Source of the DNA: a virus
IMG/VR virus record: IMGVR_UViG_3300042898_006838
Coordinates: 1-64,000 of that record
Reading direction: 5' to 3' (one strand)
DNA length: 64,000 nucleotides
A program made the position numbers and the translations under genes. The notes under the pieces were generated by a model that worked only from the letters and a program-made list of their open reading frames with translations, was not told the origin of the DNA and searched no databases. Positions 43,823 to 64,000 of the stretch are shown in pieces (the first letter of the stretch is position 1; every line of letters begins with the position of its first letter).

Positions 43823-46293
43823 GGTGCGACGTCCATCTGCGTGCGCACATGCCGCTCGACAAGTCCCCAGACGGTCATGGCCGTGCGCACGTAGGCGCTG
43901 GAGTCAGATTCGGTGACACCGGCTGACGACAGACGTCTGACTCGTCTGGCGTCTGAGAGCACGGCAGCCGCCGCCGGCGCATGCACCTGGTACGCGACTA
44001 CCCGGCCCGGGGTGTCGGCTCCGGCGTAGAGACGGCCGCGGCTCAGTGTCGTACCAGACTCCAGGGCCACGGCGTTGACTGAACCGGCTCCTGTCAGCCC
44101 GAGTTGAGCCTGGGTGAACTCGACCTTGTCCGCTGTCGAGACGTTCAACAGCGCCACGTGGCCGGCTGTTGCCACTGCCAGAACATCGCCATCCAGAACC
44201 AGGTCCCTGACATCTGAGGCCTGAAGAGCCGGAACCGTGCCGTCGTCGGCGAAGAATTCTGAGGCCTGCAGGGCCAGGAAGCGACGCCAGTCCCAGACCT
44301 CGACGCTGCCGATGCCGGTGTCGTTGTAGGCCACAGCCAGGCGCCGGTCACTGAGTTCGACCCGGAACCCGGCGACGGGGATCGTTCGACTGACAACGGG
44401 GCCGGGAAGCCCGACCTCGTCAACGTCATGAGCCATGGTCACGACGCTCGTGCCCGTCAGCGCCAGGAGCCACTGCCTACTCCAGGCCCTGAAGGACATG
44501 GACGAGTAGGGGCCTGGCGCCAGGGCGTAATCGGCGTCGGGGATGTCACCTGCCTGGTTCATGTCTCGTGAGGTGATGTCTCCAGACCCGTCTTCCAGTC
44601 CCACTGTCGACAGACGACGAGATGTGTCGCTCACGAAGTCGATGGTGATGACCTCGCTGTCGCTGGCGACAGAGAACACGGCGTCGGGACCACCATCTCC
44701 GTCCAGCAGCGGCCTGGCGCTGTTGCCGGCCATGGACCAACCGCTTACGGCCTGCGTACAGCTCATCCACGGCGTGGTCGCCAGTGGCTGCAAGATCAGC
44801 CAGCCCCCTGGATAGGTCACGAACGTGCCGCTGACCGGAAAAGATCCGAGCTCCGTGAACCAGCTGGCGACGTCCGACGTCCGCGACCCGTTGTCGTAGC
44901 GCCAGCCGTCGGCGGCGAAGCCCGTGTGCCCGAGGGCCACGGGGTCGGCAAAGCTCTGGCCCTGGAAGTCGAAGGACAGGGCGTTGACGACGTCATCTGA
45001 CAGCAACTGTCCGCCGGCGACGTCGGCCGCCGCCGCCTCGACGCCGGAGCCAAACTGCACGCTCCAGACCCGGCGCTCACCGGCTCGTGCCGAGAGATCG
45101 GAGGCCCGGACGTCGACATGCACCAGCCGCCTGTCGGCGTAGGCGACGCTGTTCTTCAACACCACGTCAAAGCCGCCGGTGACGGGCGTGAGCGTGGACG
45201 CGGCATACGTTCCGACTCCGACGCCGGCGGTCACGGCTGGAGCGCCGTCGACGAGGACGGTGACGGATGCCAGGGTCACGTCGTGGACGCTGGTGACCGT
45301 GAAGGCCAGGTCGCTGGTCGGCGATGACAGGCGCGGGACGCCGCGGGACCCAGGGGCGGGTGAGATCAGGGACACGATCGGGCCCTCGGCCTGACCGACG
45401 TCGAAGTGGTAACGGGTGACGCCAGGGTTGCCTCGGGCGTCGGCGGCGCGGACCACGACCTCGACACGGGTTCCGACGGCGTAGGCGCTGGGCACGGTCA
45501 TGACCGTCGTGGCTCTGCCGCTGACCACGGACGTCACCGGCAGCCAGCCGCTGACGCCGGCGTCTCGACCGTTGACCACGATCTGCTGACCCTGGACCCA
45601 GATGTCCAGGCCCCAGTCCCTGAAGACGTTGACCGTCGCCGACGGGTTGAGGATCTGGGAGCCGTCGTAGGTCGCCAGGTTCGGACCCTGGACGCTGACG
45701 ATGGTCCTGAAGACTCCGGGGACGACCTCCAGGACCCGGCCCTCACAGCCCCTGAAGCTCAGGCCCGGGTTCAGGGACGGGTTGAACCAGACCTGGTTGG
45801 CGGGTGACCCGGGACCCAGCGGCAGGTTCGGGGCGTACTGCAGGTTCGCGGACACGATCGTGAAATCGACTGTCTCCGTGACCTCGTCGCTGACCACGAC
45901 CGTCAACGACGCCGGGCTGGCCGCGGCTCGCGAAAACGGCGCTGGCACAGTCAGTGTCGGCACGACGACCGGGCACTGACGATCTGCGATCTCGAATGTC
46001 CAGGACTCGTCGAGGGCGCCGGTGACGACCCGCAGGTGGCAGGTATCTCCGGCCGCCAGCGGCTCCACAGGACGTATTACGACGTCAAAACCGCTGCCAC
46101 CGTCAGCAGATATTTCCGTATCCATGGCCTGGCTCTCTGAACCAGAGACCACCAGGCGGCCGTTGAAGTAGACGCTGAGACCGTAGACTGGCGTCGTCGG
46201 GTCGTCGCTGGTCACCGACAGCGTCACGATCTGCCTGGGGCTGACGCCAGAGGCCAGGGGCTGCGGATCTCTCTTGCTCACGGCCAGTGTCAC
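43819..46293 (-). CDS. Large tail protein with Ig-like domains and a propeller-like region (824 aa)
   Basis: Residues about 1-420 form several Ig-like segments (VTLSVTSDDPTTPVYGLSVY, GPIVSLISPAPGSRGVPRLS, FDVVLKNSVAYADRRLVHVD). Residues about 520-790 have repeating blade-like phrases: WLLALTGTSVVTMAHDVDEV, RRLAVAYNDTGIGSVEVWDW, DLVLDGDVLAVATAGHVALL, GRLYAGADTPGRVVAYQV. No catalytic residues are obvious. It follows the 535-residue gene by an ATGA overlap. A structural or adhesive role in the tail is likely. Confidence 0.65.
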   Translation of the reverse strand: MTLAVSKRDPQPLASGVSPRQIVTLSVTSDDPTTPVYGLSVYFNGRLVVSGSESQAMDTEISADGGSGFDVVIRPVEPLAAGDTCHLRVVTGALDESWTFEIADRQCPVVVPTLTVPAPFSRAAASPASLTVVVSDEVTETVDFTIVSANLQYAPNLPLGPGSPANQVWFNPSLNPGLSFRGCEGRVLEVVPGVFRTIVSVQGPNLATYDGSQILNPSATVNVFRDWGLDIWVQGQQIVVNGRDAGVSGWLPVTSVVSGRATTVMTVPSAYAVGTRVEVVVRAADARGNPGVTRYHFDVGQAEGPIVSLISPAPGSRGVPRLSSPTSDLAFTVTSVHDVTLASVTVLVDGAPAVTAGVGVGTYAASTLTPVTGGFDVVLKNSVAYADRRLVHVDVRASDLSARAGERRVWSVQFGSGVEAAAADVAGGQLLSDDVVNALSFDFQGQSFADPVALGHTGFAADGWRYDNGSRTSDVASWFTELGSFPVSGTFVTYPGGWLILQPLATTPWMSCTQAVSGWSMAGNSARPLLDGDGGPDAVFSVASDSEVITIDFVSDTSRRLSTVGLEDGSGDITSRDMNQAGDIPDADYALAPGPYSSMSFRAWSRQWLLALTGTSVVTMAHDVDEVGLPGPVVSRTIPVAGFRVELSDRRLAVAYNDTGIGSVEVWDWRRFLALQASEFFADDGTVPALQASDVRDLVLDGDVLAVATAGHVALLNVSTADKVEFTQAQLGLTGAGSVNAVALESGTTLSRGRLYAGADTPGRVVAYQVHAPAAAAVLSDARRVRRLSSAGVTESDSSAYVRTAMTVWGLVERHVRTQMDVAP

Positions 46294-47897
46294 AACGGAT
46301 ACCCTTCGGTTACGACCGCAAAGTTCACGCGCGAAGCGCGCGATATATCGGCGTCGCTGATGGCGACGTTGTACCCTTCCTTCAATAGCTTTATGAACGT
46401 GAGTTTTAAGTCAACGTCGGACACTCCAATGTCAAAACTTTCGTCGACGACGATGTCTTTACTCTCTCCTGAACCAATGCCTCGCGCCCTGCTTGTTCTC
46501 AACTGTCCTGAGTTGGGACTGGCTGACGTCGAGATCCAGACTGATATGCTTGCAATGTATCCGCTGTCAGTGGTGTCAATGTATCCCTCAACGAGCACCT
46601 GGATGAGAGATACCTTATTAAGTTTATCGGGAGATGAGAACTTGGCTTTGCCTACGACAGTCGCTTCCTGCGTCTTGACCTTGGCGTCGGCCTGGTCCTG
46701 TGTCTTGGCGACAGCGGGCACCTCACCCGCAGCGCTGGCGGCGGCGGCGTCTGCGTCCTGGCTCTTGGCTTCCGCGGCCGCGATCTTGTCGTCGGCGGCT
46801 TTGACGGCAGCGGCGGCGGCATCGGCTGCAGCCTGATCTCCGGCAGCCAGAGCGGCGGCCTGAGCTCGTGACGCAACTGCTTTTTCTTCCTCGCCTGCAG
46901 CTTTGTCGAAGCTGGCTTCCAGGCTGGCGTCGATGGCGTCGACAGCCTGCTTCTCCAGGCTTGCGGCCTTCTTCTGTGCCGGGAGCTGCTCGTCGGTCTT
47001 GGTCTTCTCGGCCTCGTTGGCCACCTGCCTGGCACCCGGGCTCGGCGCCAGGATGTCCTCGACTTTGACCTTCTCCTGGTTCAGGCGCTTGCTGTTGGCG
47101 ACGAGGTCGCTGACGCTGCGTGGCGTCGACGTCGTGCCGTCAGGGTTTTTACGGTCAACTCCGCCGATGAACGCTCGCTCGGCCACGACCATGGTCAACG
47201 TCACGTTCACGGCCCCGGGGACCTGAGAGTTTCTGGCCGCGGTCATGGACAGCAGCGTCCCCTGCACGATCACGTCCTCGTAGAGGATGAAGGTCTTGGC
47301 CCGGAGTTCGATGCTCTTCGTGCCGCGGTAGTAGTCCTCGTAGTCCTGGAGTAGCTGCGTCGTGAAGTTCATGCCGTCGACGTCACGGCCGTTGAGGACG
47401 ATGCCCTGGAATGTCCAGATACGGGGGCGACGACCGAAGACGAATAGGACCTCGCTGGCGAAGGTCTCGTGCAGCTGGTAGCGCTCCTCGTCGGCCTCGG
47501 CGATGGCTTGCAGGCTGAACTTGTCGAAGGTCAGGTTCGGCACGTACTCGCTGCGGACGCTGCTCTTCCGACTCGGCTCGACCTTGATGATCATCTTCGC
47601 GCCGACCTTGAAGGCTCCGCTGGTGACCAGGTCCGCGGTCGGGATCTCCTGCCTCGTCCGGCTCTTGTTCTTCTCCTCGTTAGCGGTCGTGGCCGCCTCC
47701 TGCAGGCCGGTGACAACGCGTTGACTGTCGTCGCTGAACAGGTCCAGGAAGGAAGGAAGATAGCTGATGGCCACGGTCTGCGTCGGCACCTTCTCGATGA
47801 CCTCGGTAAAGCGCAGTTGGTTCATGACCGACGACAGAGCCAGGCTCACGATCGTGGGCTGGTCAGCTTTTGCCGAGACTTCACTATTCTTCGCCAT
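46290..47897 (-). CDS. Tail/baseplate protein following the tape measure (535 aa)
   Basis: The N-terminal ~270 residues are globular, with RRPRIWTFQGIVLNGRDVDG, LQDYEDYYRGTKSIELRAKT and ILYEDVIVQGTLLSMTAARN, a pattern seen in phage proteins encoded directly after the tape measure. Residues about 320-410 are an Ala/Lys/Glu/Asp-rich helix, probably a coiled coil (AAADAAAAAVKAADDKIAAA). The last ~110 residues form another domain (NKVSLIQVLVEGYIDTTDSG, DVDLKLTFIKLLKEGYNVAI). The start overlaps the tape-measure stop by one base. Likely a baseplate or tail-tip protein. Confidence 0.65.
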   Translation of the reverse strand: MAKNSEVSAKADQPTIVSLALSSVMNQLRFTEVIEKVPTQTVAISYLPSFLDLFSDDSQRVVTGLQEAATTANEEKNKSRTRQEIPTADLVTSGAFKVGAKMIIKVEPSRKSSVRSEYVPNLTFDKFSLQAIAEADEERYQLHETFASEVLFVFGRRPRIWTFQGIVLNGRDVDGMNFTTQLLQDYEDYYRGTKSIELRAKTFILYEDVIVQGTLLSMTAARNSQVPGAVNVTLTMVVAERAFIGGVDRKNPDGTTSTPRSVSDLVANSKRLNQEKVKVEDILAPSPGARQVANEAEKTKTDEQLPAQKKAASLEKQAVDAIDASLEASFDKAAGEEEKAVASRAQAAALAAGDQAAADAAAAAVKAADDKIAAAEAKSQDADAAAASAAGEVPAVAKTQDQADAKVKTQEATVVGKAKFSSPDKLNKVSLIQVLVEGYIDTTDSGYIASISVWISTSASPNSGQLRTSRARGIGSGESKDIVVDESFDIGVSDVDLKLTFIKLLKEGYNVAISDADISRASRVNFAVVTEGYPL

Positions 47898-50800
47898 CAG
47901 CTGAACCAGCCTCTCTGCTTCTCTTGCAGCTTCTGGACGACGTCGGCCAGTGCCAATGAGGACTTGGCGATACTTTCCATTTGCGTGGCCAGTTCGGATG
48001 CCGATTTGGACTCAGACGTCGTCAGCATGCCGCCGTTCTTGCTCATCGTCACACGGCCGCCAATGCCCTCGCCCATGAGTCCAGAGAGCCGAGCCGAGCC
48101 GAGCTCTTCAGCCGTCAGCCCGCCTTCCATCAGCTTCTTGGCCTCGTCCTTGCCGACGAGAGCCTCAAGGCCCTTGCCACTGGAGTCGGCATCGAGAGCC
48201 TTCATGATCGTTTCGCTGACACCCTTGGCCTTCAGAGCCGCGCGCTGCTCCTTGCTCAAGCTGATGTTGCCGAGACCGGCGAGGGTATCGGCTCCGACAT
48301 CGCCTTTGGCCAGGGCTCCGAGGGCCAACATCCCCTTGCCGTCGACGCCGCTGCCGGCGAGGACGCGCTCCAGGTCACTGCCGGCGACCATCGCCCGAGA
48401 AGATATGGCTTTGTCGCCTTCGAACCGGCCAACGGTATCAAGGCTCCCCTTGATCCCCTTCAGGCCAGAAACTCCAAGCTCCTTCCACAGATCCGCGGCT
48501 CCGCCCGTCAACTTCTCGGCCTGAGCGTTGATCTCGCTGGTAGTACCGCTGTCGAGCATGCCCAGGAGCTTCTTCATGTCTTCGCTGCCAGCCGCTGCCG
48601 CTATGTCATCTTTAGTAAGCGTCTTACCGGCGAAGAATAAGTTGTCTTTACCTGTGACACCTTGAGCAGCTAGTACATCGTTTATGTCAGAGACAGCCTT
48701 GTCGTTGGACGCACTGTCTTCAGCTGTTGGTTTAAATTTTCGTCCGGGACTGCCAAGAAGGATGCTGGGGATATTGATCCCGTAGTCCTTGCCGATTTTC
48801 TCCTCCAAAGCCTTGGCTACAGTTGGGCTCTTGGACAGGATACCGTCGTACTGGCCTCTGGTGGCCAGGTTCATGTACTCGCGCATGAGCTGACGCTTAC
48901 GCTCTGGGTCGGTAGCAGCCTTCAACTCCTCCATCTTGGCACTGGCCACGGCGCCAGATCCTCCGGAGCTTCCGATCTCACTATCCTTGAGGATTTTATC
49001 AGCGGCCAGGCGATGCTTCTGCTCGACCTTCTTGCCGTCGTTGTTCTTTATAAATGATCGGTACCTATTACGTTCACGTCGACTTTCGTTCTCATCGGTC
49101 ACGTCTGATTGGTTGCTCATCTTACCGACTTGACCGAGACGGTCGCCTAGCATTGTCTCGTCTTCCGTTTGCCCGAGTCCCTTGCCGCCACCTGAGACAC
49201 GCAAGATATCTGTGGCGTTGACTTTTCCTCCCATGTTCATGTCTTCGAGACCGTAGTAGCTGTTTCTGAGTCCACGCATGACGTTGCTGGCGCTGTTGGA
49301 CCATGAAGCCCCTGTGTAAGCCATGCCCTCAGCTGCTCCGGAGAATGCGCTTTGAACGTCGCGGCCAATCTTCGGCATGATCGCTGCCTGCTCCAGCGTC
49401 CGGCTCGTGATCTGGTTGCCGAGCTCACGCGCCTGGCTCCGCTGCTGGCCGCGGAGCGCCGTTGGCGACTCCTCGATCTGGCGCATGAGGCCTTCGAGCT
49501 GGGCGCCGCTGGCCCCGGTCTGCTGGCCTAGGAGGTTCATGAACAGCGTGCGCTTGTTGACGCCGGACCCTCGGCCCAGGCTCTCGGTCTGGCTCATGAT
49601 CTGCTGGGCCATGGCTGACAGCATAGCCGGCTGGTCCTTGAGCATCTTCGCCTGCAGCTCCTGCGGCCGCGTCGTCATCTCCAACAACATCTCAGGCGTG
49701 GCGTTGGCGCTCGCCCGACCCAGGGCCCCGGTAGTGCTGCGGCCGACGCCGGACATGCTGAAGCCGCCTCCACGCTGGTAGCCGGCGCCCATCATCGCCA
49801 TGGCCGTGCCGCTCTGCATGAAGTTGCCCATGGCGTTGCCCAGCGCGTCCTGGGCGCCTTCTCGTCCGCCGAGAGCCGCGACGTCACGAGCTCGCAAGCG
49901 TCCGCTGCCAATGGCACCCTGGGCGATGTTGGCGCTCATGGCCCCGAGGCCAAAGCCTTCTGCTCCCAGTCCCATGCTCGCCATCTTGTTGGCCTGACGC
50001 ATGCTTGCCGCCGCGCCCTCTCCGCTGGTCAAGCCCCTGATCGACGAGCCGATGACGGCCATGCGCGCGGCCTGGGATGGGTCGATGCCCACGGCCTGCA
50101 TGTCGCTCATGTTCGCCAGCGTCTCGCGGACGGTGGTGCCCATGGTCCGACCCATTTCCTTCACCGTCTTCGTGAGCTCACGCATGCGTCTGGCGACGTC
50201 GGTAGCGTTTCCCGCCCCACGCATCAGGTCCTGCTGCACGGCTCCGCCAAAGATCTCCTGGATGTCGCGCTCACTGAACGTGGCGTCGTTGATGGCCAGC
50301 TTGTTCATCTCCGAGCCAAAACCCACGCGCTGACCACGTGTTGACTGGCCGCCGCCCTGGAAGCGGAACGCGTTCTTGCGGTACTGGTCGCCGAACTGGT
50401 TGATGACACCCGACTGCCTGACGGTCTCGCCGATGGACATGGTCACCGGAGCCAACAGCGCCTGACCGGCGATGCCGCCAACCAGTCCCGCGGCCATGCC
50501 GCCGCGCGCGAGTCCCATCGCTGGGCCCAACACTGAGCTGCCAAAGGCGTCGCCGGCGATTGCCGTCAGTACCGAGGCACCGCCTGCCCCGGCTGCGGTC
50601 ATGGTGTTGCCGAAGCCTGTGGCTGCACGCTCCACACCCGCTTCCATGACCCGGCCGCCGTGCATCTGCCGCATCATCCCCGGAGTGACGCCCATGCCCA
50701 TGCCCACAGCCGCCGAGCGGAACATGCCGGCGTTGGGGTCGAGCTCGGCGCCGTAGCTCGTGCGCCTGACGCCCGTGCCCATGAACGGGCTGACGGCCCC

Positions 50801-51259
50801 AGCCCCGGCCCGGCCGAAGAAGGATCCGAAGCTGTTGGCCGCGCCCAGGCCGGCCATGCCGCCGCCGAAGGCCGCTCCGGCCATGGCCCCAATGGGAACC
50901 TGCGGCATGGCAAAGCCGCCGTACCCGCCGCCGTAGGACGGGGGTGGCTGGAGGTTCATGGGCATGACCGGCGACGCCGCCATCTGCATGCCGCCACCGA
51001 GCCTGGAGATCGAGGAGTTGAGGCTGTTGAGCTGCGTGGCCAGCATGTTCATCTGCACAGACAGGCCGCCGACGGCCTGCTGAGTCTGGCTGGCCAGCAT
51101 GTTCACGGCCATGGTCTGACCGGCGACGTTGCCCTGAACAGACTCCAGGCTCCGAGCGGCACGAGACAGGTCAGCCGAGCCCAGATTCACTGAGCTCGGC
51201 GCCTGTCGATCCTGATTCAGAAGGCCTGAAAGTCCGATTGCTGGGTCAGCGGCTGGCAC
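47897..51259 (-). CDS. Tape measure protein
   Basis: The 1120-residue protein has the hallmarks of tape measures: a helical N-terminus (TQQAVGGLSVQMNMLATQLN), long Ala/Gly/Met-rich hydrophobic stretches (residues about 100-290, for example MAGAAFGGGMAGLGAANSFG), then a long mostly helical, charged remainder. It directly follows the G / G-T chaperone pair, the conserved order in tailed phages. A length of 1120 residues predicts a tail of roughly 165 nm using the usual 0.15 nm per residue rule. It overlaps the G-T end by 14 bases. Confidence 0.85.
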   Translation of the reverse strand: MPAADPAIGLSGLLNQDRQAPSSVNLGSADLSRAARSLESVQGNVAGQTMAVNMLASQTQQAVGGLSVQMNMLATQLNSLNSSISRLGGGMQMAASPVMPMNLQPPPSYGGGYGGFAMPQVPIGAMAGAAFGGGMAGLGAANSFGSFFGRAGAGAVSPFMGTGVRRTSYGAELDPNAGMFRSAAVGMGMGVTPGMMRQMHGGRVMEAGVERAATGFGNTMTAAGAGGASVLTAIAGDAFGSSVLGPAMGLARGGMAAGLVGGIAGQALLAPVTMSIGETVRQSGVINQFGDQYRKNAFRFQGGGQSTRGQRVGFGSEMNKLAINDATFSERDIQEIFGGAVQQDLMRGAGNATDVARRMRELTKTVKEMGRTMGTTVRETLANMSDMQAVGIDPSQAARMAVIGSSIRGLTSGEGAAASMRQANKMASMGLGAEGFGLGAMSANIAQGAIGSGRLRARDVAALGGREGAQDALGNAMGNFMQSGTAMAMMGAGYQRGGGFSMSGVGRSTTGALGRASANATPEMLLEMTTRPQELQAKMLKDQPAMLSAMAQQIMSQTESLGRGSGVNKRTLFMNLLGQQTGASGAQLEGLMRQIEESPTALRGQQRSQARELGNQITSRTLEQAAIMPKIGRDVQSAFSGAAEGMAYTGASWSNSASNVMRGLRNSYYGLEDMNMGGKVNATDILRVSGGGKGLGQTEDETMLGDRLGQVGKMSNQSDVTDENESRRERNRYRSFIKNNDGKKVEQKHRLAADKILKDSEIGSSGGSGAVASAKMEELKAATDPERKRQLMREYMNLATRGQYDGILSKSPTVAKALEEKIGKDYGINIPSILLGSPGRKFKPTAEDSASNDKAVSDINDVLAAQGVTGKDNLFFAGKTLTKDDIAAAAGSEDMKKLLGMLDSGTTSEINAQAEKLTGGAADLWKELGVSGLKGIKGSLDTVGRFEGDKAISSRAMVAGSDLERVLAGSGVDGKGMLALGALAKGDVGADTLAGLGNISLSKEQRAALKAKGVSETIMKALDADSSGKGLEALVGKDEAKKLMEGGLTAEELGSARLSGLMGEGIGGRVTMSKNGGMLTTSESKSASELATQMESIAKSSLALADVVQKLQEKQRGWFS

Positions 51260-52189
51260 GTTTATCTCCCAGGTAGACTCTCCGGACTCTATACGACTTC
51301 GCGCCCTCTGACTTCAGGATCTGCTTCATCTCCTCTTTGGTCTTCTCCTCGGCCTTCCCATCGCCGGGAAACATCAGTTCCCGCAGCTTTTGCAGCTGCT
51401 TGACAACTGTCTCCGAGTTCTCGTGCCTCATGCACGCCACGGCCATGACGGCTACTTTCTGAAACTCGACCGCCATCCGCCGGTAGAAGACGCGGGACAT
51501 GCGCGCCTCGTGCAGAGGGCCCTGAACCCGTACGCCGTCGTAGTACAGGTTCGCCTCCGCCCAGCCGGAAGGAGTCGTATTCAGTTTCCCAGGACGTCGC
51601 CCGCCTTCTCGTCGTTGGCGACGGCGTCGACGGTGGTCTGCAACACCTGGTAGAACTCGATCAGACGCTGGACGATGGCTACAGGCAGGGCGCCCAGTGC
51701 CGCGTAGCGACGGCTCCTGACCTCGGACATCGACTCGGCCGCCAACTTCGGGTCAGTGCGCACGAGCTCGTGGTAGTCCTCGGGCATGGTTACGCCGCCG
51801 AAGTCCATGCCATTCATCGTCGTCAGAGAGTGCGTGAGCAGCAGCAGGTTCAGTTCGTTGCTGACACGCAGGTTGTTGGGGTCCTCGTCGCGCATGAACT
51901 TGTCCAGCTGCTTCTGGCTGTCCAGTGCCTGCGCCTCGTTGAGGCTGCGCATGCGGATACTCATGCCTGCCGAGATCCTGATCTCGTCGGTGACGTAGAA
52001 GAACGGAGCCGTGGTCAGCGCGGTCATGATCTCCAGTTCCTTGCCCGTGAGCAGCTTGGACATGACCTCACGCGCCTTGCGAGTCGATCTCTTCAGCCAG
52101 ATCTGCTGCGCCTGTCGAAGCTGTCCGTCGCTGAGCTTCTCCAGATCCTCTGTCGTCACGGCCCTTGGTGTCGTCGCTTCTTCCGCCAT
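51246..52189 (-). CDS. Tail assembly chaperone fusion G-T (by -1 frameshift)
   Basis: The reading frame of the G gene continues in the -1 frame from the slippery site at 51584-51590 to a stop at 51246, giving a 314-residue fusion (202 + 112). The T part has protein-like sequence from the first codon after the slip (LNTTPSGWAEANLYYDGVRV, then HEARMSRVFYRRMAVEFQKV), though there is no standard start codon there; the first ATG is at 51500. The arrangement of G, -1 slip, G-T, tape measure is conserved in tailed phages. The fusion and G protein wrap the tape measure during tail assembly. The 84-residue product from ATG 51500, with GAGG upstream, is a possible alternative. Confidence 0.75.
51581..52189 (-). 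CDS. Tail assembly chaperone G
   Basis: The 202-residue protein starts MAEEATTPRAVTTEDLEKLS after a strong AGGAGG ribosome binding site. It is mostly helical (LKRSTRKAREVMSKLLTGKE, LNEAQALDSQKQLDKFMRD), as expected for a chaperone. It ends ...AGDVLGN and stops with TGA directly after the slippery heptamer. The call rests on position just upstream of the tape measure, size and the frameshift signal rather than on family sequence similarity. Confidence 0.75.
   Translation of the reverse strand: MAEEATTPRAVTTEDLEKLSDGQLRQAQQIWLKRSTRKAREVMSKLLTGKELEIMTALTTAPFFYVTDEIRISAGMSIRMRSLNEAQALDSQKQLDKFMRDEDPNNLRVSNELNLLLLTHSLTTMNGMDFGGVTMPEDYHELVRTDPKLAAESMSEVRSRRYAALGALPVAIVQRLIEFYQVLQTTVDAVANDEKAGDVLGN
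51584..51590 (-). promoter_or_regulatory. -1 ribosomal frameshift slippery site G GGA AAC
   Basis: On the minus strand the codons CTG GGA AAC TGA contain the heptamer G GGA AAC, which matches the X XXY YYZ rule in the correct phase. It is directly followed by the stop codon of G. A Shine-Dalgarno-like AGAAGG lies about 13 bases upstream, at the distance known to stimulate -1 slips in bacteria. A weak stem (CTCC..GGAG) lies just downstream. The phage lambda G/G-T site is the close relative GGGAAAG. Confidence 0.8.
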
Positions 52190-52203: not shown

Positions 52204-52231
52204 AAAAAAAACCGAGGCACGAGCCCTCGGT
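52204..52231 (-). terminator. Rho-independent terminator upstream of the tail chaperone genes
   Basis: The minus strand reads ACCGAGG-loop-CCTCGGT followed by eight T residues. It ends the small-gene segment and lies 14 bases before the G start codon, so the G ribosome binding site comes immediately after it. Read-through or a processed transcript must supply the tail genes unless a promoter is hidden in the terminator region. Confidence 0.85.
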
Positions 52232-52232
52232 C

Positions 52233-52248
52233 CACCGTCTCCGGTGGC
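52233..52248 (-). other. Second hairpin next to the terminator
   Basis: CCACCG-TCTC-CGGTGG forms a six-base stem two bases from the terminator, on the side of the upstream gene. It has no T tract of its own. It may strengthen termination or protect the 3' end of the upstream message. Confidence 0.5.
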
Positions 52249-56735: not shown

Positions 56736-56995
56736 ACAGGTACCCGGCGCGGCAAGAACAGTGTGACCGAGAAGGCTGCCGTCCCGCGAGGCTGAGACCG
56801 GGAGCGACGGTGCGCGTGCAAGGAGTTGTCAACGGAGTCATCGGCCCGTTGGTCGAGGGACGCGTGTTGATCTCCAAGGCCAGCGATCTGGCCCCGGAAG
56901 TTGATGCGGTACTTGTGGCAACAAGAGAGTACGGTCGGCGTTGGTTTCACACCCGAGGCCACCCATTCCGAGTCGTTGAGGAGATCTGCGCATGA
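56732..56995 (+). CDS. Small basic protein preceding the portal (87 aa)
   Basis: The protein starts MNRYPARQEQCDREGCRPAR and continues as a small beta-barrel-like domain: GATVRVQGVVNGVIGPLVEG, LISKASDLAPEVDAVLVATR, EYGRRWFHTRGHPFRVVEEI. It has two cysteines close together near the N-terminus. Both ends overlap neighbours as ATGA. A nucleic acid- or protein-binding role is possible but not shown. Confidence 0.6.
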   Translation: MNRYPARQEQCDREGCRPARLRPGATVRVQGVVNGVIGPLVEGRVLISKASDLAPEVDAVLVATREYGRRWFHTRGHPFRVVEEICA

Positions 56996-59178
56996 CCAGC
57001 GAGAACGTGGCGCTTGAACGCCATACTTACGACGACCCGTTCCTGGACATGGCCTCGACGAAGCTGCCGAAGAGCTTCAAGAAGCTCATGGAGCTCTGCC
57101 AGATCTTCGCGCTCACGCACCCGCAGATCAGCCCCATCATCCAGCGCCTGGCCGAGTATCCGATCACCAGCCTCGTCTACAAAGGCGACCGTGAGAGTGA
57201 GCGTGTCCACAAGGACATCTTCGAGGTCAAGCTCCGGATCATGGAGAAGATGATCGAGTGGGGCCTGGACTACCACGCCTACGGAAACTGCTTCATCAGC
57301 ATCAGCTTCCCGTTCCTGCGCATGTACCGATGCCAGACCTGCAAGACCATCTACCAGAGCCGTGAGGTCAACTACCAGTACATCGGCGGCCGATTCCAGG
57401 GTCGATGCCGAAGCTGCGGCGGAGACCGAGAGTTCGATGCCATGGACCAGTACGTCAAGGACGCCAGCGGCATCAACCTCTTCCGCTTCGAGCCGCAGCT
57501 GATGACGCCGAAGTTCAACCGTGTCACCGGCCGCTACTTCTACTACTACGACATGCCTCCGGACCTGGTACGCAGCGTCGAGATCGGTGACAAGGACATC
57601 ATCGACAGCACGCCCGTCGAGTACCTGCGGTGCGTGAAGCTCAAGCGCAAGATGAAGCTCAAGCGCGTCTTCCACTTCAAGCGCCCGACACTCAGCGGCC
57701 GCGACATGCAGTGGGGTTTTCCGCTGGTGCTGCCAGCGCTGAAGGATGCCTACCTCAACCAGATCTACAAGAAGGCCGACGAGGCTATTGCCCTCGAACA
57801 CAGCGTGCCCCTGCGCGTGATCTTCCCGCAGCCGCAGACCAAAGACCCAATGCAGATGCTGGCGCTGGGCAACTTCAAGAACTTCATGGCCAAGAACATC
57901 AGGTACTGGCGCCAGGACAAGAACGCGATCATCACCGCGCCCATGCCCATCGGCAGCATGAACATCGGCGGCGACGCCCAGGCCTACAGCACCATCCAGG
58001 CGCGGGTGAAGGTCGTCGACGAGATCATCGGCGCGTGCATGGTCACCCGTGGCTTCGTGCTCGGCGGTGAGAACTGGTCAAGCGCCAGCATCAGCCAGCG
58101 GGTCATGGAGAACAGCTTCATGAACTACCTGCGTCGCATGGACGCCTGTCTGCAGTGGGTTCGTGACGAGGTTGGCGCGTACATGGGCCTGCCGCCGTGC
58201 GCCGTGTCGATGAAGCCATTCAAGAAGGTCGACGACGTGCAGATGCTGCAGCTGATAGTCGGCCTGGCCCAGCAGAAGCGTGTCAGCTGGCAGGAGACGC
58301 TTGGGCGACTGGACCTGGATAGCCGGGACGAGCTCGACGTCATCGAGAAGGAGGCCGTGCGCTACACCGAGCTCATGGTCCAGGAACTCATCGGCCAGAA
58401 CGAGGCCAGCTCCAAGGCTCTCGTGGCCCAGACCGTGGCCCAGGACCAGGCGGCTGGCGTTCAGGAGGTCCTGCAGGCCCAGGCCATGCGAGGTCAGGCC
58501 GTTGGTGCCGATGCCGCTGGGCAGATGAGCAAGGCCCAGTTCGAGGCTCAGCAGGCGGAGGTGGCAGCCAACACGCCGCCAGACCCGGCGTCGGCGGCAG
58601 CATCGGCTGAGGCCGAGAAGGACCAGGCCGTGGCCGAGAACTTCCGCGTCCGCAGTCAGCAGATGAGCGGGCAGCAGCCGGAGCAGCCGCAGGAGCAGAT
58701 GGTGGACGTGAACATGCAGCGTCAGATCCAGATGTGGGCCGGCGAGCTGCTGTCGATGTCCGGCGACGAGAAGCGTAAGCAGCTGCAGTACATGCACGAG
58801 CAGAACCCGGAGATCGCCCAGGCCGTGGTGGAGGTGGCCAGGGAGATGGAGCAGAGCGGTGGCGGTCAGCAGACCGCCGGTCCCGGTCCAGCTATCAGCA
58901 GGAGCCAGGACGCCAAGTCCATGACCGACGCCATCATGTCCCAGGTCAAGAGCCCAGATGAACTCGCTCAGCGCCTGTCCATGATCGATGCCCGGCAACA
59001 GTCAGCCGTGCTCCAGGAGATCCAACGCCGAAACCCTCAGCTCTTCATCAAGGTCATGCAGTTGATGAACGCCGAACGAGCCAAGGGGATGGAGTCCGGA
59101 GCCGGCCGTGGTAACGTGCCAGACAGCAAACCGCTTCCAGAACAGAAACCGCCGCAGCGCGAGGAGTCACCGGTATGA
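56992..59178 (+). CDS. Portal protein with a zinc-ribbon insertion
   Basis: The 728-residue protein has a portal-like plan: N-terminal helices (FKKLMELCQIFALTHPQISP), a middle with FFLYYYDMP-type strands (RVTGRYFYYYDMPPDLV) and long helices (LVLPALKDAYLNQIYKKADE), then MQMLALGNFKNFMAKNIRYW, IGGDAQAYSTIQARVKVVDE and ENSFMNYLRRMDACLQWVRD, and a Gln/Ala-rich C-terminus. Cysteines C114/C117 (CQTC) and C139/C142 (CRSC) form a zinc-ribbon pattern inside the N-terminal half, an uncommon feature. The portal is the ring at the head vertex through which DNA is packaged. The call rests on overall pattern and context. Confidence 0.75.
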   Translation: MTSENVALERHTYDDPFLDMASTKLPKSFKKLMELCQIFALTHPQISPIIQRLAEYPITSLVYKGDRESERVHKDIFEVKLRIMEKMIEWGLDYHAYGNCFISISFPFLRMYRCQTCKTIYQSREVNYQYIGGRFQGRCRSCGGDREFDAMDQYVKDASGINLFRFEPQLMTPKFNRVTGRYFYYYDMPPDLVRSVEIGDKDIIDSTPVEYLRCVKLKRKMKLKRVFHFKRPTLSGRDMQWGFPLVLPALKDAYLNQIYKKADEAIALEHSVPLRVIFPQPQTKDPMQMLALGNFKNFMAKNIRYWRQDKNAIITAPMPIGSMNIGGDAQAYSTIQARVKVVDEIIGACMVTRGFVLGGENWSSASISQRVMENSFMNYLRRMDACLQWVRDEVGAYMGLPPCAVSMKPFKKVDDVQMLQLIVGLAQQKRVSWQETLGRLDLDSRDELDVIEKEAVRYTELMVQELIGQNEASSKALVAQTVAQDQAAGVQEVLQAQAMRGQAVGADAAGQMSKAQFEAQQAEVAANTPPDPASAAASAEAEKDQAVAENFRVRSQQMSGQQPEQPQEQMVDVNMQRQIQMWAGELLSMSGDEKRKQLQYMHEQNPEIAQAVVEVAREMEQSGGGQQTAGPGPAISRSQDAKSMTDAIMSQVKSPDELAQRLSMIDARQQSAVLQEIQRRNPQLFIKVMQLMNAERAKGMESGAGRGNVPDSKPLPEQKPPQREESPV

Positions 59179-61785: not shown

Positions 61786-64000
61786 ATGTACCAGCACGCC
61801 GAACGCACCTTCTCCGACGTCAAGCGAAACCTGGAGACCTACGTCCGGGGTCTGTTCCCCATCGAGGGCAAGAAGCGGACGCTGGTGCTCCGTGACCTGG
61901 AGATCAGGGACAACGCCGACCCAGGTGACTACGCCAGTCAGCGTCAGGCGCGCATGGCCGGCGAGAGCTGGAGCATCCCAGTCATCGCCGTCATGGAGCT
62001 GTTGGAAGGTGGCAAGGTCATCGACCGGGCGAAGATGAAGATCATCGACCTGCCGCGGCTGACCAACCGCGGTAGCTACATCGTCAACGGCACGGAGTTC
62101 ATGTTCCCGACGCAGAAGCGCCTGCGATCAGGACCCTACGTGCGCCTGGGCGAGAACGAGGAGCTGCGCACGTTCTTCAACGTCGCCAAGGGCCGCAGCT
62201 TCCACCTGGGTCTTCACCCGACCAAGGGCCACTTCCAGTTCCAGATCGAGAGTAGCAAAAACATCCCCCTGTACCCGCTGCTGCAGGTCCTGGGCGTCAG
62301 CGACGACGATATGGTCAGGGCCTGGGGCCGAGAGGTCTGGAAGGCCAACGTCGTCACCGACCCTGGTCAGCGAACCAAGGCGCTGCAGACCATCTACGAG
62401 AAGATGTCGTACGCACGAGATGATGTACCGGCTCCCACCGTCGAGCAGCTGCCTGATGCCATCAAGGCCATATTCTCAGCCACGGTTATCGACGGCGAGA
62501 ACACCGAGCTGACCATCGGTGAGCGTCACGACACAGTCAGTGGCCGGGCGGTGATGTTGGCGGCGGCGAAGATGTTGGGCGTGGCCCGAGGCGAGCGCGA
62601 GGAAGATAACCGCGACAGCCTCATCCACAACGACATCGTGGATCTTGGCGACTTCATCGTCGAACGCTTCCGAGACCCGCAGTTCCGAGGCCGCATCGTC
62701 AGGGCCGTGAAGTTCAACGTCGACCGTCGCGACAAGGTCAGCCAGATCATCAGCCGCGACAGCTTTCAGCGCCCGGTCGACAGCATGCTCACTGAGAGCC
62801 AACTGGCTCAGACCCCGAACCAGAACAATCCGCTGGGTATGATCAGCGACTACACACAGCTCACGGTCCGGGGCGAGGGTGGCATCCAGAACGACAACGC
62901 CCTGACACGCAGTGTCCGGGCCCTGGATCCCAGCCACCTGGGATTCATCGACCCCAGCCACACGCCCGAGGGCCAGGGCGTGGGCACGACCCTGCACCTG
63001 ACGACGAACACGGAGAAGCGTGGTCGCGACCTCGTGGCCCGTGTCATCGACGTCAAGACCGGCAAGGCCGTGGACCTCACTCCGGTACAGATCTTCAAGG
63101 CCACAGTCGCCTTCCCCGAGTCCTGGGACGGGAAGAAGCTCACGGGCCCGAAGGTCAAGGTCAGCCGACGCGGCGAGATCTCGAACGTGCCGGTGTCCGA
63201 GGCCCAGTACGTGTTCTCGAAGCCAGAGCACCTGATCGACGTCAACAGCGCCAGCATCCCCTTCCTCAGCCACAACAACGGCACGCGCGTGATGACGGCC
63301 AGCAAAATGGGCGCCCAGGCCAAGCCGCTGGAGACGCCGGAAGCGCCGTTGGTGCAGGTGGACAGCGGCGAGGGCACGACCGTCGAGGCCGTGGTCGGAG
63401 CCGCATTCTCACCGAAGTCTCCGGTCACCGGTATCGTGGAGAAGGTAGAGGAAGACGCGGTCATCATCTCCGGTCAGCGCGTGTCCATTCCCCGCCACTT
63501 CCCGTTGAACAGCAACAACTTCCTGCACGCACAGCCGACGGTGAAGGTCGGTGACAAGGTCTCCAAGGGCCAGGTCATCGCCGACACCAACTACACGGAC
63601 AAGGGCGTCATGGCCCTGGGGAAGAATCTGCTCGTGGCTTACACGCCCTACAAGGGCATGAACGTCGAAGACGGTGTGGTCATCAGCGAGACCGGCGCCA
63701 AGAAGATGACCAGCGAGCACATGTACCAGCAGCCGTACATGTTTGACGTCGACACGGTCATGGACCTGAAGAAGTTCCAGGCCTACTTCCCGGCCAAGAT
63801 CAAGAGTGCAGATGCCGAGAAACTCGACAGTCAGGGCGTGATCAAGAAGGGCCAGGTCGTCGGCCCCGGGTCCATCCTCGTCGCGGCCATGCGCAGGCAC
63901 GCGCCGACCACTGAGAGCCAGCGCCTGGCCGCTGTCAGCCGCATCCTGGCCAAAGAGTTCCGTGACGACAGCCTACGCTGGGAGAAGGACGTCACGGGCG
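61786..64000 (+). CDS. rpoB-like: Phage-encoded DNA-directed RNA polymerase beta subunit (3' end beyond the window)
   Basis: The frame starts at ATG 61786 after GGATGAGG and is open for 738 codons to the window end. It shows the beta-subunit motifs in order: NGTEF at 101-105 (INGTE in bacteria), QNNPL at 346-350, TPEG at 393-396, SHNNGTRVMTASKMGAQ at 495-511 (EHDDANRALMGANMQRQ), and GKNLLVAYTPYKGMNVED at 612-629 (GQNMRVAFMPWNGYNFED). The bacterial beta is about 1,300 residues, so roughly half lies outside. Beta contributes the active centre together with beta'. Unlike phiKZ-type phage polymerases, in which beta is split, this gene is continuous over the range seen. A sigma-like factor is encoded at 29633. 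Confidence 0.9.
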   Translation, partial: MYQHAERTFSDVKRNLETYVRGLFPIEGKKRTLVLRDLEIRDNADPGDYASQRQARMAGESWSIPVIAVMELLEGGKVIDRAKMKIIDLPRLTNRGSYIVNGTEFMFPTQKRLRSGPYVRLGENEELRTFFNVAKGRSFHLGLHPTKGHFQFQIESSKNIPLYPLLQVLGVSDDDMVRAWGREVWKANVVTDPGQRTKALQTIYEKMSYARDDVPAPTVEQLPDAIKAIFSATVIDGENTELTIGERHDTVSGRAVMLAAAKMLGVARGEREEDNRDSLIHNDIVDLGDFIVERFRDPQFRGRIVRAVKFNVDRRDKVSQIISRDSFQRPVDSMLTESQLAQTPNQNNPLGMISDYTQLTVRGEGGIQNDNALTRSVRALDPSHLGFIDPSHTPEGQGVGTTLHLTTNTEKRGRDLVARVIDVKTGKAVDLTPVQIFKATVAFPESWDGKKLTGPKVKVSRRGEISNVPVSEAQYVFSKPEHLIDVNSASIPFLSHNNGTRVMTASKMGAQAKPLETPEAPLVQVDSGEGTTVEAVVGAAFSPKSPVTGIVEKVEEDAVIISGQRVSIPRHFPLNSNNFLHAQPTVKVGDKVSKGQVIADTNYTDKGVMALGKNLLVAYTPYKGMNVEDGVVISETGAKKMTSEHMYQQPYMFDVDTVMDLKKFQAYFPAKIKSADAEKLDSQGVIKKGQVVGPGSILVAAMRRHAPTTESQRLAAVSRILAKEFRDDSLRWEKDVTG

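Follow-up and report, generated by a model that had tools for sequence, protein, structure and literature searches.

Introduction

In phage lambda, the overlapping genes G and T lie upstream of the tape-measure gene, and a -1 frameshift on G GGA AAG near the end of G gives rise to gpGT, which carries an extra T domain, besides gpG. Neither gpG nor gpGT is found in mature virions, and the chaperone genes usually show low similarity from one phage to another (PMC5009743). Archaeal siphoviruses employ, among others, the heptamers GGGAAAC and AAAAAAC (PMC5009743). In Rous sarcoma virus and barley yellow dwarf virus, a stop codon directly follows the slippery sequence (PMC4373837).

Salmonella phage Arash is described as a myovirus with a tail of 140 nm. 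A separate genus has been proposed for it (PMC10585845). Its gp2 and gp3, like genes 2 and 3 of Vibrio phage D69, are annotated as two hypothetical proteins without a frameshift.

The DNA analyzed in this study is a stretch of 64,000 nucleotides (the window), which is part of a virus record of 155,932 bases. A first-pass annotation had proposed that two tail chaperone genes in this window are joined by a canonical -1 frameshift and that the locus encodes both G and G-T. G/G-T frameshifting is widespread in tailed phages; it would be new for the lineage to which the window phage and Arash belong.

Results

Relationship of the window phage to Arash

The portal gene of the window (56992-59178, plus strand) encodes a protein with 31% identity to its counterparts in the Vibrio phages D69, D181, and D148, and 26% identity to that of Arash. 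Furthermore, the window contains a gene for the beta subunit of a multisubunit RNA polymerase that is related to Arash gp206. The window phage is a large relative of Arash that encodes a multisubunit RNA polymerase of its own. Its closest relative is an 18.9-kb contig (L002); a 191-kb relative (G005) has a portal with 34% identity.

Two additional observations were made on these marker genes. The portal has a zinc-ribbon-like CxxC...CxxC insert at residues ~114-142, the cysteines of which are all retained in L002, D69, and Arash. The RNA polymerase beta region is situated inside one unbroken open reading frame of 2019 amino acids, extending from window position 61786 to record position 67845 (plus strand). 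As Arash gp206 has 1526 amino acids and the second subunit gene, gp216, is separate, the polymerase subunits may be fused or extended in the window phage.

Gene G, slip site, and T frame

Gene G, a candidate tail assembly chaperone gene, occupies positions 51581..52189 on the minus strand. Its 0-frame product comprises 202 amino acids and starts from ATG 52189, with AGGAGG located 5' of the start codon. The gene ends in CTG GGA AAC followed by UGA (51581..51583), and the slippery heptamer G GGA AAC (51584..51590, minus strand) is in phase and directly abuts this stop codon. Upstream, a terminator-like hairpin with a T run was detected at 52209-52233 (minus strand), between the preceding gene and the AGGAGG of G; gene G may hence begin a separate transcript or be attenuated.

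After the slip, the T part (51246..51584, minus strand) remains open for 112 sense codons plus the stop codon. No ATG, GTG, or TTG is present in this frame from a stop 57 codons upstream until ATG 51500, which is codon 29 of the T part. The heptamer in phase, the length of the open -1 frame, and the 28 leading codons lacking a start had all been reported in the first-pass annotation and were found as described. Translation through the slip predicts a G-T fusion of 314 amino acids (51246..52189, minus strand) with the junction ...DVLGN|LNTTPSGW.... The 0 frame beyond the UGA runs into further stops within ~45 codons. ATG 51500 is preceded by GAGG five bases 5', and both elements are conserved in L002, so that a short T protein alone would also be possible.

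In-phase X XXY YYZ heptamers with AAA or TTT as YYY are infrequent in the main open reading frames of the window (only five in 8,867 codons), so that such a heptamer is unlikely to make up the last codons of any particular gene. GGA accounts for 17% of the glycine codons in the window. At 63% GC, an open -1 frame is weak evidence by itself. The strong evidence beyond chance is conservation, with homology in the -1 frame that begins at the slip site.

Conservation of the slip site and of the T part

In L002, gene G also encodes 202 amino acids and ends in GGGAAAC UGA, with phase and offset (599) identical to those of the window. Both fusions comprise 314 amino acids and align without gaps, with an identity of 58% overall (53% in G and 66% in T). 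Across the 28 codons preceding ATG 51500, 19 residues are identical between the two. Position-specific substitution counts for these 28 codons in the window and L002 gave no proof of the frame by themselves; it is the wider homologues that establish it.

When G005 was searched with a profile built from the fusions of the window and of L002, the match was confined to the T part and started from model residue 201, which corresponds to the slip. The T part of G005 is 30% identical to that of the window, and the alignment extends from the first residue. Its G gene ends in CUA AAA AAC UUC UAG, with A AAA AAC in phase and one sense codon before the stop.

Arash gp2 emerged from a blind search of gene ends for heptamers; it ends in A AAU UUC UAA and has a -1 extension of 120 codons. 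The same A AAU UUC UAA is present at the junction of Arash gp2/gp3 and of D69 genes 2/3, and the homologues in D181 and D148 carry the same heptamer flush on UAA. As in the window, Arash and D69 have homologous G, T, and following genes in the same order, with a canonical heptamer abutting the stop; they differ from the window in the heptamer and in the stop codon. Profiles of the Arash and D69 proteins were then run on 48 IMG/VR records and revealed G and T in 17 further records. In all 17, the UAA or UAG stop is immediately preceded by A AAU UUC or A AAU UUU, and the independent matches of G and T either overlap by one base or are separated by a short gap. As two near-duplicate pairs are among them, ~15 are distinct. 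No T match was obtained in 31 of the 48 records searched, which says little because many of them are fragments. AAU makes up 10-22% of the asparagine codons in the GC-rich members and 14% in Arash, yet every member with A AAU UUY retains it at the site.

Altogether, ~20 distinct homologous gene pairs with three heptamers have a canonical site at the end of G or one codon before it, with the slip as the starting point of the T homology. The first-pass annotation had named an alignment of relatives for a conserved heptamer as a check; this conservation agrees with it and, together with the -1 frame homology, supports the predicted coding of both G and G-T. Its further suggestion that annotating T from ATG 51500 would lose 28 residues is likewise in line with the alignments to L002 and G005. 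The stretch of the T frame that extends from the upstream stop to the slip is free of start codons in 22 of the 23 loci. After the slip, the first start codon is codon 48 in L155 and codon 42 in L156. The conserved N-terminus of T in these two loci, which lack an early start, is best explained by a fusion.

One exception to the canonical site was found. G028 (L158:1420-2052) has G GAU UUU UAA, in which the first half of the heptamer is degenerate, and a T homologue still follows in the -1 frame. Clean re-pairing would be possible at the second codon only. The locus offers a natural experiment on whether a half-heptamer is enough beside a stop. G004, with C CCA AAA UCC UAA and one sense codon between heptamer and stop, is a candidate whose T homology lacks statistical support.

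Only profile comparison connects the clade of the window with that of Arash. In this comparison, G of the window matched G of the Arash clade with a probability of 90 (P 1.5e-6) and T of the window matched T of the Arash clade with a probability of 84 (P 7.7e-6). When G, T, and the neighboring structural genes were scanned against PHROG and Pfam, nothing significant was found. Given the low similarity that is usual between phages, recognizable homology to known chaperone families is not a defining feature of G/G-T chaperones. The window G, the window tape-measure candidate, and the G005 G had no match among the proteins of the phage collection, and no relative was found in a single-sequence search of IMG/VR with the window G. 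Similarly, a scan of the genome contigs with the window fusion gave no match. In G002, which has a close portal, no G-T was present in the fragment examined, and a weak match to the tape-measure profile was the open reading frame adjoining the portal. AlphaFold models built from three sequences were of low confidence, insufficient for confirming a chaperone fold, with a mean pLDDT of 59.5 for T and 51.0 for G.

A separate observation concerns D69 VPHD69_0271 (L124:6013-6822; also in L003), a protein of 269 amino acids. Its gene ends in G GGA AAG before UAA, and the -1 frame is open for 159 codons. In Arash, this -1 stretch seems to correspond to gp224, a distinct gene that has an ATG of its own. 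VPHD69_0271 is possibly the site of a second frameshift in D69.

Genes downstream of G-T

The gene next to T is a tape-measure candidate (47897..51259, minus strand) of 1120 amino acids, which starts from GTG 51259 and shares its first 14 nt with the 3' end of T. In profile comparison, it matched the gene following G-T in Arash (gp4), in D69, and in IMG/VR relatives (probability 96, P 2.3e-9). It is followed by a structural gene (46290..47897, minus strand) of 535 amino acids with a profile match to Arash gp6 and D69 gene 7 (P 5e-5); this open reading frame showed no match to the other Arash gene profiles tried. Taken together, the profile matches of these four products indicate that the order G, T, tape-measure candidate, and structural protein is common to the window and Arash.

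Tape-measure proteins span about 0.15 nm per residue, and the length of Arash gp4 (1097 amino acids) suits a tail of 140 nm. By spectral count, gp4 ranks second among the proteins of the Arash virion, and gp4 and gp6-8 are listed among the virion proteins (PMC10585845). Genes of the gp4 type are candidate tape measures based on size, position, and virion abundance, and not on a domain match. Gp2 and gp3 are not among the 116 virion proteins listed for Arash (PMC10585845). Their absence is expected for chaperones, as the lambda chaperones are also absent from virions.

In G005, the G-T pair is located ~12 kb from the tape-measure candidate, with small genes between them. A gene for a GroES-like co-chaperonin (L094:12867-13208; phrog_3188, E 3.5e-7) was found in this interval.

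Putative stimulators

The first-pass annotation had pointed out AGAAGG upstream of the slip site. The hexamer is present at 51604..51609 (minus strand), 13 nt 5' of the heptamer, and is weakly Shine-Dalgarno-like; this position is within the spacing of 9-14 nt given in the literature for -1 shifts (PMC5009743). Its position was thus correctly described. A role as stimulator is unsupported, because AGAAGG is not conserved in L002 and its anti-Shine-Dalgarno pairing is no better than that of shuffled sequence. Among the relatives, GAGGAGGG occurs ~9-10 nt upstream of the site in L157, L159, and L161.

Downstream folding was analyzed for stem-loops. Strong stem-loops were predicted a few bases downstream of the site in L151 (z -5.7), L152 (z -5.1), and G004 (z -3.8). 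RNA folding 3' of the window site revealed no significant structure (z -0.56 for 101 nt and 0.14 for 47 nt), and the fold differs in L002. The putative stimulators differ between relatives.

Discussion

The signals at the junction, their conservation, the homology in both frames, and the gene order are observations; that ribosomes slip here, how often they would do so, and the chaperone function are inferred. The best reading of the locus, which we consider very probable, is a -1 frameshift in the tail-chaperone genes of a large Arash-related phage, with G-T as the minority product and the tape measure encoded next door. Most ribosomes would stop at UGA 51583 and release G with 202 amino acids. 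On G GGA AAC, a minority would move back by one base in a tandem -1 slip and add 112 codons, giving G-T with 314 amino acids and the junction VLGN-LNTTPSG. By analogy to lambda, many copies of G and few of G-T would coat the tape-measure protein encoded by the adjacent gene, and the T part would recruit tail-tube subunits. As in lambda, two overlapping genes lie directly upstream of the tape-measure candidate, the predicted -1 shift is close to the 3' end of G, and the fusion would carry an extra T domain. In contrast to lambda, the heptamer is GGGAAAC and is abutted by the stop, and no sequence similarity was detectable by Pfam or PHROG match. The archaeal siphoviruses were compared by heptamer, and two of theirs are identical to those of the window (GGGAAAC) and of G005 (AAAAAAC).

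That T is an independent gene, translated by coupling from ATG 51500 (85 codons with the stop, 84 amino acids) next to an incidental heptamer, would fit the retention of this ATG and the preceding GAGG in L002, as well as the annotation of Arash gp3 from an internal ATG. We regard it as improbable, as the 28 codons before the ATG are themselves conserved with L002 and align from residue 1 in G005, the T homologues of L155 and L156 cannot initiate internally before codons 48 and 42, and heptamers are kept at the junctions. The single stop between G and the downstream coding sequence might instead suggest readthrough or recoding of the UGA without any change of frame. The T-family homology sits in the -1 frame, the 0 frame soon meets more stops, and relatives have UAA or UAG at the same place; readthrough was rejected because it is contradicted by the frame of the T homology, and we give it practically no credence. 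Slippage can also occur during transcription, which usually requires long homopolymer runs. A phage that encodes its own multisubunit polymerase could in principle alter the message by a base and so fuse the frames, mimicking a frameshift. Neither GGGAAAC nor AAAUUUC contains a long run, and the conserved X XXY YYZ phase is a requirement of ribosomal slippage. This explanation was rejected on both grounds, its chance of being correct being very slight.

A different question is the moment of the slip, which leaves the protein the same and concerns the role of the stop and the release factor. The -1 shift might occur mainly after translocation, with the stop in the A site and slow release allowing the P-site tRNA (with the E-site tRNA) to slip. 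Such a slip would account for the stop abutting the heptamer in the window, L002, Arash, D69, and the 17 IMG/VR records, and for G028, where the first codon is no longer slippery and UUU UAA is retained. In addition, for a stop placed after the HIV-1 heptamer, work cited in PMC4373837 reports that bacterial RF2 competes with the shift. On the other hand, XXX is conserved except in G028, including the rare AAU in GC-rich phages, although a single-tRNA slip would not need it, and in G005 and G004 one sense codon separates the heptamer from the stop. On balance, a mainly post-translocation slip seems doubtful, though worth serious consideration; the probable frameshift on the tandem heptamer would yield the same G-T.

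A flush 0-frame stop across the lineage is unusual against the mean distance of 26 nt in the actinophage training set of PRFect (PMC10885494). Rous sarcoma virus and barley yellow dwarf virus have a similar layout; they are eukaryotic viruses in which other genes are concerned, and the resemblance is convergent at most. Within the lineage, it is kept while the heptamer differs, with A AAU UUY in one clade and G GGA AAC in the other. As bacterial RF2 can compete with the shift at such a stop (PMC4373837), the speed of termination may tune the ratio of G to G-T. The stop might then be part of the signal, the flush heptamer coupling this ratio to termination speed through the supply of release factor; we put this forward as a speculative and rather unlikely idea.

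The results assign a putative tail-chaperone function to a gene pair in a nearly unannotated phage lineage and correct the gene model of Arash gp2/gp3. Furthermore, the lineage provides a natural set of slip sites in which the layout is constant and the heptamer, stop codon, and stimulators vary. Such a set would be useful for testing the effects of stop codons on bacterial -1 frameshifting.
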